A stretch of DNA of 56,261 nucleotides. Source: Candidatus Micrarchaeaceae archaeon. GTDB lineage: Archaea; Micrarchaeota; Micrarchaeia; Micrarchaeales; Micrarchaeaceae. The DNA lies in NCBI GenBank assembly GCA_027310755.1, contig DAIDAE010000002.1, positions 1 through 56,261 on the forward strand, written 5' to 3'. Shown here piece after piece: positions 7,350 through 50,592 of this stretch. A program made the position numbers and the translations under genes. Positions within the stretch are counted from its first letter, which is position 1. Every line of letters begins with the position of its first letter. The notes beneath the pieces were generated by a model. The model did not search any database and was not told the origin of the DNA. It saw only the letters and a list, made by a program, of their open reading frames with translations.

Positions 7350-7466
7350 GGCGGGGTGGCTCAGCCTGGTAGAGCGCCCGACTCATAATCACAGCATTAT
7401 GAGTGTTGAGCATAAATGCGATGACGAGAAATCTGGAGGTCGCGGGTTCAAATCCCGCCCCCGCCA
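7350..7466 (+). tRNA. tRNA-Met (anticodon CAU) with a 43-nt intron
   Basis: The acceptor GGCGGGG/CCCCGCC is perfect and the T arm is GCGGG-TTCAAAT-CCCGC. The anticodon stem CCCGA faces TCTGG with one C-U mismatch; the loop is CTCATAA and the anticodon CAT is at 7384-7386. An intron at 37/38 (about 7388-7430) is needed to restore the loop. CTC/GAG pairing next to an AAA bulge fits a relaxed bulge-helix-bulge processed by the splicing endonuclease. The stem lacks the three G-C pairs of an initiator, so this is elongator Met; tRNA-Ile2(CAU) cannot be excluded. Confidence 0.85.
7388..7430 (+). other. Intron of tRNA-Met at position 37/38
   Basis: Sequence between the two halves of the anticodon arm. 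Its start pairs with the anticodon loop: CTCATAAT (7382-7389) and ATTATGAG (7396-7403) form a perfect 8-bp hairpin that hides the anticodon in the precursor. Exact ends may shift by a base or two because AAA is repeated at the junction. Confidence 0.7.
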
Positions 7467-11196: not shown

Positions 11197-11488
11197 ATGC
11201 AAGGTCCCCAATATCCCCACCCCTATCCCTACCATGAATACAAAGTAGCGGCAGGCCATAGCCCTCCTTCTGTTTTATGCAGCATTGGACTGAGCGTCGA
11301 AATTATCGACTTGCATACCGGCACACCATCGGCGCGTTTCATCCATCACAATATCGCTCGTCGCGTCATCGCTTGACATTGCTCTGGTATCGTTTCTGTT
11401 CCGAATTAGGCCCTGGGCCATATGTGCTTTATATGGTATGGGAGGAGCTTCCTCCTTTCGGTTGGCTGCTCACCTGCCACTATTGTAG
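11197..11488 (+). pseudogene. Decayed small membrane protein gene
   Basis: A Pro/Tyr-rich start (MQGPQYPHPYPYHEYKVAA) reads in one frame from the ATG at 11197. The adjacent frame then reads AIALLLFYAALD, an in-frame TGA (11291-11293), and a hydrophobic stretch VSSITISLVASSLDIALVSFLF ending at TAG 11486. One frameshift and one stop would have to be corrected to give a protein of about 97 residues with two or three membrane helices. Sequencing error is an alternative. This explains the otherwise empty gap after the DoxD-like gene. Confidence 0.45.
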
Positions 11489-48568: not shown

Positions 48569-49861
48569 TCAAGGAGTCAGTCTCTTTCTGTCTCTCGGGA
48601 ACAAGGTTACCTCTCTTATATTCTCCATGCCCATCATCCCCATCGCAAATCTTTCAAGGCCTATGCTCCAGCCGGCATGCGGCGGCGCGCCCGCCCTGAA
48701 CGCGTTAATGTAGAACTCAAAGTTCTTCGGGTTTAGCCCCTTCCTTTTCAACGACTCCACCAGCAAATCCGGATTGTGTATGCGCTGTGCGCCGCTGCAG
48801 ATCTCCAGCCCTTTGTATATGTAGTCAAAGCTGTCGGTAAGGCCCGGATCGCCCTCCTTCGGCATCGAGTAGAAAGCCCTCAGTTCTACCGGATACTCCT
48901 TTATCACGACAGCGTCCCCAAAAACAGCCTGTATGCCCTTCTCGTGCTCTTTCGAGAAGTCGTGACCCATCTCGATGGCATAGCCCTTCTTTTTGAGCCC
49001 CTCTATCGCCTCCTTATAAGTTATGATCTTCGTCTCCGGTGCATCGAGCTTCACCCCGAGGGTCTCAAGATCGCGCTTGTTGTGCTCCTTCACTGCGCTC
49101 ACGATCGCCTTCACGGTTTCTACCAGCACTTTTATCGCATCATCCGCGCTATTTGTGAACGCGAGCTCCACGTCCATCTGCGTTATCTCGTTTATGTGGC
49201 TTGTGGTGTTCGACTTCTCCGCCCTGAAGACCGGCATTATCATGAATACCTTGTCAAATCCACCTATGACGGCCAGCTGCTTATACAGCTGCGGGGACTG
49301 CGCAAGATAGGCGGGCCTGTCAAAGTACTTTATCTCAAACAACTCCGATCCTCCCTCGCTGGATGCGGCTATTATGCTCGGCGTCCTTATCTGCCTAAAA
49401 CCTTTCTTCGACAGGAAGTCCCCAAAAGAGTCCAGAATCGTGGATTCTATGTTGAAAATTGCTGCGGTCTCGAGCCTTCTCAGGTCTATCTGCCTGTTGT
49501 CCAGCCTCACATCTATCTCGGCGGGGACCTTTCCCGTGACCTCAAACGGTATCTTTGCGGATAATGGGTTGAGGTTGGTAACTTCCCTCGGGACAATCTC
49601 AAAGCCCTTCCTTGCCTCACTATTGACCTTTACAACCCCCCTGATTTTTACCACGCTTTCCTTCGGCAGAGACATGCTCTTTATCACACCAGGATCTGCC
49701 TCGCCGGATTTTCCCATTACCTGAACCAGCCCGGTGCTGTCCCTAAGTATGAGAAAGGTTATCTTTGCCGTCTCCCTGACTTCATGAACCCAGCCGGCGA
49801 GAGTCACCTCCTTCCCCTCCATAGCCGCGGTAATCTCGCCTATATAATGGCTCCTAATCAT
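48569..49861 (-). CDS. aspS: Aspartyl-tRNA synthetase, archaeal type
   Basis: 430 residues from the ATG at 49861. Class IIb: N-terminal OB-fold (GKEVTLAGWVHEVRE), motif 1 region, motif 2 FRAEKSNTTSHINEITQMDVE, and motif 3 GWSIGLERFAMGMMGMENIREVTLFPRDRKRLTP. Archaeal AspRS is often non-discriminating and may serve tRNA-Asn as well, but this cannot be read here. The track extension (residues KQEAHIPLGVG) is the out-of-frame tail of a tnpB relic, so the gene start is now next to the insertion-sequence end. ATG 49879 is an alternative start. Confidence 0.95.
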   Translation of the reverse strand: MIRSHYIGEITAAMEGKEVTLAGWVHEVRETAKITFLILRDSTGLVQVMGKSGEADPGVIKSMSLPKESVVKIRGVVKVNSEARKGFEIVPREVTNLNPLSAKIPFEVTGKVPAEIDVRLDNRQIDLRRLETAAIFNIESTILDSFGDFLSKKGFRQIRTPSIIAASSEGGSELFEIKYFDRPAYLAQSPQLYKQLAVIGGFDKVFMIMPVFRAEKSNTTSHINEITQMDVELAFTNSADDAIKVLVETVKAIVSAVKEHNKRDLETLGVKLDAPETKIITYKEAIEGLKKKGYAIEMGHDFSKEHEKGIQAVFGDAVVIKEYPVELRAFYSMPKEGDPGLTDSFDYIYKGLEICSGAQRIHNPDLLVESLKRKGLNPKNFEFYINAFRAGAPPHAGWSIGLERFAMGMMGMENIREVTLFPRDRKRLTP

Positions 49862-49898
49862 TGGTTCACCGAACAACATAACAGAAGTGTGACATACT

Positions 49899-49920
49899 CC
49901 CACCCCTAAAGGGATGTGGG
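49899..49920. repeat. Right-end hairpin of the IS605-type relic
   Basis: CCCAC-CCCT-AA-AGGG-AT-GTGGG. The 2-base bulge and position just after tnpB match right-end recognition hairpins; in active systems the 3-prime end of the omega-RNA scaffold lies here. Confidence 0.65.
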
Positions 49921-49929
49921 CTTCTTGCT

Positions 49930-50100
49930 TCAACGACAGACATTGTTTCCATCTCTGCAAGCGTTACTTCCCGCAAGTCCTGCGGTAGCTTTTGCAAGTA
50001 TATTTATTGATGCATTTATATCCCTGTCGGTCTGTGTGTTGCACTTCTCACAGTAATCATCCCACCCTTGAAAGGTGTGGGATTTCTCACTATGCCATGT
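49930..50100 (-). pseudogene. tnpB (OrfB) C-terminal remnant, frameshifted
   Basis: The minus strand reads HSEKSHTFQGWDDYCEKCNT, then QTDRDINASINILAKATAGLAGSNACRDGNN and VCR-stop: the zinc-knuckle Cys pair and the DRDxNASINI block that ends every TnpB. The usual last residues (SLKQEAHIPLG) appear in the next frame, showing a frameshift near 49950. Only about 55 of roughly 400 codons remain, so there is no nuclease. Confidence 0.75.
50061..50081. repeat. Second (left-type) hairpin of the IS605-type relic
   Basis: CCCAC-CCTT-GA-AAGG-T-GTGGG with a single bulged T. Its 3-prime flank (GGATTTC...ATGTTAAAT) is shared with 8187-8212. Confidence 0.65.
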
Positions 50101-50193
50101 TAAATATTACTTTGAGCAAAACCTTAAATATTGCTGCTCTTGGACAGATAACGCTTAAGAACTACAATGTTCACAATTCTATGGGACGGGCAG

Positions 50194-50592
50194 ATGGAGA
50201 AAGTATCCGAGATAATGGACAAGAAATTGGTCGCAATATCGCACGATGCAAGTTTGAAGTCCGCATTGAAGCTTGCTAAGACCGCAGGGGTGGGCATGCT
50301 GCCCATTCTGGATGGGGATAGGCTCGTAGGTATGGTGGGCACCGACGATATCCAGCATTATATTTCCAAGGATCCGGGCAGGGGGGAAGAGTCCGTGGAT
50401 ACGCTCTCCAAGGCGCCAGTTTTTCTTGAGGCCAATGAAACCAGGCAGTCTGCGATGGCCAAGATAATAAAGAACGGGCTTTCAAGGATGCCGGTGGTTG
50501 AGAGCAGGTCAACAATGAGATGCCTAGGAACGGTGAATTCAACCGATCTTCTAAAGGCATCGGCTGACGATCAGTCAGAGCAGGCAAAATAA
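50194..50592 (+). CDS. CBS-domain protein
   Basis: 132 residues from the ATG at 50194; ATG 50167 is in frame and closer to the TATA box (CCTTAAATATT, around 50122), so the start is uncertain. Two CBS motifs: VSEIMDKKLVAISHDASLKSALKLAKTAGVGMLPILDGDRLVGMVGTDDI and a second copy ending RMPVVESRSTMRCLGTVNSTDLL. A stand-alone pair of this type usually senses adenosine nucleotides or SAM. Convergent with Alba. Confidence 0.85.
   Translation: MEKVSEIMDKKLVAISHDASLKSALKLAKTAGVGMLPILDGDRLVGMVGTDDIQHYISKDPGRGEESVDTLSKAPVFLEANETRQSAMAKIIKNGLSRMPVVESRSTMRCLGTVNSTDLLKASADDQSEQAK

Follow-up and report, generated by a model that had tools for sequence, protein, structure and literature searches.

A PATE-like derivative of an IS605-type element upstream of aspS in a Micrarchaeaceae genome with a putative omega-RNA region at its right end

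Core-deleted derivatives of IS605-type elements with near-terminal palindromes are known as PATEs from Haloquadratum walsbyi (PMC3119063). HqIRS71 retains part of the C-terminal region of tnpB, some PATEs of this organism appear to be mobile, and the deletions, which lead to 52-bp forms, have been described as arising via the repeated end palindromes (PMC3119063). A PATE-like element of Halanaerobium hydrogeniformans lacks tnpA and consists of a left end (LE) of 28 nt, the final 58 nt of tnpB and an entire right end (RE) of 160 nt (PMC7290912); no discussion of an omega-RNA was found for it there. In IS200/IS605 systems the omega-RNA or reRNA of TnpB (ISDra2, PMC8612924; PMC10278001; haloarchaeal sotRNAs, PMC12558985) overlaps with the 3' end of tnpB and with RE, the guide is taken from the flank and the TAM corresponds to the target motif. 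The reRNA comprises about 150 nt of the tnpB 3' end and RE followed by about 16 nt of flank (PMC8612924), and processed omega-RNAs span 79 to 466 nt (PMC10278001).

The element analyzed here has the architecture of the Halanaerobium element, although host and sequence are different, and it shares the core deletion and the near-terminal palindromes with the PATEs of Haloquadratum. In contrast to the deletions via end palindromes, its junction has an overlap of 1 nt, and the 3' region is complete. The putative omega-RNA has the same position as in the known systems and would likewise take its guide from the flank, with the TAM as target motif, but the nuclease gene is lost, so that any use of the RNA would be in trans. 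The PATE-like class is known already and gains one more member; the omega-RNA reading of such mini-elements seems to be little discussed. A literature search, with key subscription papers outside its reach, found no guide-only IS605 minis. Work by Meers et al. from 2023 is said to touch, possibly, on PATEs with omega-RNAs.

The element is located between aspS and a divergent gene with CBS domains. The window, which is the whole stretch of 56,261 nt that was analyzed, belongs to an archaeal draft genome of 870 kb in 62 contigs. The features of the locus are listed below.

48569..49861, minus strand: aspS (aspartyl-tRNA synthetase; Pfam tRNA-synt_2 and OB fold), start MIRSHY conserved in relatives
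49869..49888, minus strand: would-be 20-nt guide ACTTCTGTTATGTTGTTCGG in the upstream/start region of aspS, the first bases beyond the conserved GTCAC end
49889..50098, minus strand: probable PATE-like internal-deletion derivative of an IS605-type element, 210 bp; LE of 48-49 nt with 92% and RE of 169-171 nt with 99.4% identity to the full copy on contig C10
49889..50055, minus strand: putative omega-RNA (reRNA) scaffold with provisional 5' boundary, proposed from a covarying hairpin, the fold and a placement with respect to tnpB and RE that agrees with PMC8612924
49899..49920, minus strand: bulged RE hairpin CCCACATCCCTTTAGGGGTGGG, followed by AGTATGTCAC, which ends at 49889
49930..50057, minus strand: 3' remnant of tnpB with the second zinc-ribbon CxxC, RuvC-III DRDINASINI and stop codon TGA
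49971..49985, minus strand: covarying 5-bp hairpin CCGCA-GGACT-TGCGG within the coding part
50056..50058, minus strand: deletion junction, LE ending in GGGATGA fused to TTACTGTGAG of tnpB with a 1-nt overlap (A)
50061..50081, minus strand: LE hairpin CCCACACCTTTCAAGGGTGGG, same sequence in the full copy and kept among relatives
50082-50098, minus strand: left tip of LE, 17 nt, between TAM and hairpin
50099..50103, minus strand: target/TAM motif TTAAC, adjoining the left end of the element; in about 20 related elements LE is preceded by TTAAC, or by TTATAA in the case of a sister subfamily
50120..50132, minus strand: TATA-like AATATTTAAGGTT upstream of the element, from the sequence and comparison with relatives
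50167..50592, plus strand: divergent gene with two CBS domains, adjoining aspS in relatives free of the insertion

The CBS-aspS pair is adjacent without the element in three congeneric genomes, which supports an insertion event at this locus. The TATA-like sequence upstream of it is likely the original aspS promoter, as far as can be judged from the sequence.

On the minus strand TTAAC is followed by the 17-nt tip, the LE hairpin, ATGA, tnpB from position 50056 onwards, the stop codon (49932..49930), the RE hairpin and the terminal sequence. The first-pass annotation had described a tnpB relic between two similar hairpins, and this arrangement was confirmed (LE 50081..50061, RE 49920..49899): they bracket the codons CEKCNTQTDRDINASINILAKATAGLAGSNACRDGNNV (50055..49939), which lie in an open frame of 58 aa. 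About 40 codons from the end of tnpB are thus retained in the right part, and all matched residues are identical to the full-length TnpB of the same genome. The right boundary at 49889 is exact, since nearly all of about 30 related elements from the same taxonomic order end with ATGTCAC, a few of them with one change, and then diverge; here, too, the flank diverges directly after GTCAC. The left boundary, which had been placed at 50106, has to be shifted to 50098, since TTAAC (50103..50099) lies directly before LE and precedes the element. No intact transposase gene is located inside the element; a related TnpA is encoded elsewhere in the same genome. Judged by these sequence features, the element is a non-autonomous (PATE-like) derivative of the IS200/IS605 family that has its end palindromes in common with a coding IS605-type element, and by the same features its insertion is 3' of a fixed short motif (TTAAC) without target-site duplication.

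A search of the genome for a complete tnpA/tnpB element with the same ends, as suggested in the first-pass annotation, identified one on contig C10, and the alignment of the region to this element (E=3e-84 and 6e-14), well beyond chance, bears out the proposed origin by internal deletion, with matches at both ends. The lack of a related full-length element, which the first-pass annotation had named as a ground for rejection, thus does not apply. Of the two proteins encoded by the C10 element, TnpA has 132 aa and hits Y1_Tnp with 133.6 bits, and TnpB (L011:1643-2749), of about 368 aa, carries HTH, OrfB_IS605 and zinc-ribbon domains. Among named relatives, this TnpB is closest to proteins of Candidatus Micrarchaeota bins (58% identity); others occur in Aenigmatarchaeota and Bathyarchaeota. 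LE is identical to the C10 copy at 45/49 positions (92%) and RE at 170/171 (99.4%). About 1.42 kb are absent relative to the C10 copy, with the junction at 50057. The LE and RE matches overlap at this base only, so that the junction did not arise by recombination between the end palindromes. Because the LE tip differs at 4/48 nt, the C10 element is a sister copy and not the direct parent. All four LE differences are located in the tip outside the hairpin (50082-50098); RE has a single difference in 169 nt.

A draft assembly of this kind, with repeated IS ends, could in principle fuse two transposon copies during assembly or binning, but we regard such an artefact as very improbable: the flanks correspond to the conserved aspS-CBS pair and both are on one 56-kb contig, the four LE sites and the one RE site mark the element as a separate copy, and the junction shares 1 nt only. 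The structure is very probably that of an internal-deletion, PATE-like member of the IS200/IS605 family with TAM, LE, tnpB 3' region and RE. We envisage that an IS605-type element, or a mini-copy of it, inserted 3' of TTAAC in the divergent aspS/CBS promoter region, and that tnpA and most of tnpB would have been lost by a deletion between the LE hairpin base and a position located about 168 nt ahead of the right end.

The right-hand region of 169 nt that was retained covers the tnpB 3' end and RE and ends at the element boundary, where an omega-RNA would be placed. Comparison of 18 distinct sequences demonstrated that 98.9% of the cells in the hairpin 49985..49971 are paired, with double-sided changes in 5/5 pairs. 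The covariation score was 0.895, compared with a value of 0.176 after shuffling and a maximum of 0.205 after sliding; the windows were placed partly by pairing, the conserved flanks CTAC..GGAC..GGAAGT fix the register, and the analysis concerns one helix only. Folding of 49880..50110 (minus strand, 231 nt, a stretch that includes the LE hairpin) resulted in z = -3.9. From these sequence data the right part is presumed to have the expected look of an omega-RNA scaffold. The end hairpins are conserved among relatives and the covarying hairpin is retained, and the predicted guide is indeed the sequence just outside 49889, after the conserved GTCAC. The proposed covariance search with Rfam was negative: neither an omega-RNA/sotRNA family, few of which are curated, nor any other family matched the region at the gathering threshold, which is a further difference from the known systems. 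The chance-level matches to SNORD38 (E=0.11) and HPnc0580 (E=8.9) were rejected as proof of an omega-RNA. The latter match aligns the hairpin of HPnc0580 to the covarying hairpin.

Pairing of LE and RE profiles in the fetched loci revealed another dozen internal-deletion derivatives in related genomes, all of which have LE, RE and 3' region; full elements in these loci comprise 1.34-1.65 kb. The lengths of the derivatives, counted from the TAM, and of the 3' parts kept are as follows.

Element upstream of aspS: length 216, 3' part 169
L102: length 289, 3' part ~210
L057: length 338, 3' part 244
L040: length 410, 3' part 345
L045: length 418, 3' part ~280
L062: length 462, 3' part 267
L097: length 556, 3' part 367
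L073: length 597, 3' part 432
L031: length 614, 3' part 369
L092 and L093: length 632, 3' part ~205
L068: length 644, 3' part 522
L051: length 911, 3' part at least 544
L140 (from the search with the RE motif): length 925, 3' part 363

For L097 and L062 the respective genomes also hold full copies, with 94-98% identity. The tnpB-deleted elements L092 (1008-1633) and L093 (1017-1642) originate from one single-contig genome (G021) and are 95.2% identical over 626 nt; each has TTAAC and GTCAC, and the flanks differ. Since the same junction is present at two unrelated sites, this mini-element has moved, barring gene conversion. Mobilisation of a non-autonomous element, as proposed in the first-pass annotation, is indicated by sequence comparison for this sister case and may occur in trans. 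The element upstream of aspS is the single copy of its kind in its genome.

The first-pass annotation had further stated that the deletion kept exactly the RNA-coding part and lost the nuclease. The loss of the nuclease was verified, but "exactly" is too strong, given the provisional 5' boundary of the RNA and the existence of ends-only elements of about 50 bp that lack the RNA part. Searching 15 genomes with the RE motif only, we detected five such elements of about 46-54 bp (L012, L129, L138, L139 and L146), in this genome and three relatives. The one in this genome (L012:886-938, G000:C11:73685-73737) is a 53-bp PATE with LE tip and hybrid hairpin, GGAGGATGTCAC, and resembles the 52-bp terminal-only PATEs of Haloquadratum. 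It is located just upstream of a TnpB-only element. Because ends-only elements occur, a deletion need not spare the RNA part, and retention of the omega-RNA region is not a rule among the minis. Apart from L109, which has lost the RE arm, and the rearranged L141, the other derivatives from this search kept at least 169 nt (8 independent derivatives compared with 5, not significant), and no LE+RE derivative of the RE-motif set had a partial 3' region of 55-168 nt. A seemingly significant sign of selection on the 3' breakpoint among all derivatives (retained length of 40-165 nt in 0/12 at the 3' side and in 7/12 at the 5' side) was discarded as biased, many of the derivatives having been found by a C-terminal protein query; the same contrast in the RE-motif set was about 0/8 to 3/8 and not significant.

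L141 (G048:C2, ~134400-134760) is a rearranged LE-RE element of 354 bp, the interior of which seems to carry part of the tnpB 3'/omega-RNA region in inverted orientation. At L107 (G129:C3, near 296900) an RE end is located directly behind a tRNA-like gene with a long insert or intron, which holds an LE-like stretch.

The element has both ends, the TAM, the presumed scaffold and the would-be guide in intact form, in a genome that also encodes a matching TnpA and TnpB. If the element still functions in trans, the C10 TnpA could act on its ends, assuming that they are fit for this enzyme. The simplest route of transcription would be the displaced aspS promoter (50132..50120) reading through the element, resulting in an aspS leader of about 210 nt and an omega-RNA scaffold with an aspS-derived guide at its end. 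The RNA would be 99% identical to the omega-RNA of the resident TnpB, which could load it in trans and might then cut the element-free site TTAAC-ACTTCTGTTATG, so that retention of the element would be favoured. Such a trans activity is plausible but unproven, and we consider it somewhat unlikely. Slightly less probable still is the wider reading of guide-only mini-transposons, which would combine both ends for TnpA with a complete omega-RNA for TnpB, would be moved and held at their site by resident IS605-type proteins and, here, would have their guide RNA made as the leader of the essential aspS.

Two other readings compete with a function in trans. The element may be the product of a recent deletion that is decaying neutrally, with the same structure and no function, and the RNA part may be there only because the right end overlaps with the gene and too little time has elapsed. 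The identity of 99.4% to the full copy, which points to a young element, its single copy and the right ends that occur in relatives at many different lengths, solo or rearranged (L104, L106, L107, L141 and L109), agree with this; the absence of partial 3' regions, with the small numbers given above, speaks against it, as do the intact ends, TAM and RNA part. We give neutral decay an even chance. An exapted leader, with the element acting at present as a promoter or a structured 5' UTR in the control of aspS, would fit the position of the element between the likely TATA sequence and the aspS start, where aspS transcripts must begin inside the element or read through it. It is nevertheless improbable, as the insertion is absent from relatives and the site is not conserved, the transposon origin accounts for the whole sequence and promoter evidence within the element is lacking.

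Should omega-RNA-bearing minis be kept by a TnpB acting in trans, the selfish unit would be the guide end and not the nuclease gene, and retention in trans would help to account for how TnpB-less IS605 remnants have spread. The genomes listed contain young minis together with intact partners that are near-identical to them, and so offer a direct test set.

The element would not target itself, as the guide match is preceded by GTCAC in place of TTAAC. No perfect second target of the guide was found elsewhere in the genome, and the guide of the C10 copy likewise had no second site there. A site with TTAAC and 13/15 guide bases is present at G000:C18:5743-5762 (L119:1501-1520), with positions 2 and 9 of the guide mismatched; about 0.002 such sites are expected by base composition. 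With two mismatches and unrelated gene surroundings it is probably a coincidence and was rejected as a true second target. The site lies between unrelated genes, upstream of a gene for a secreted-protein-like product. The window additionally contains an archaeal RNase P RNA (11247-11481) and a tRNA match of 117 nt (7350-7466), the length of which suggests an intron.
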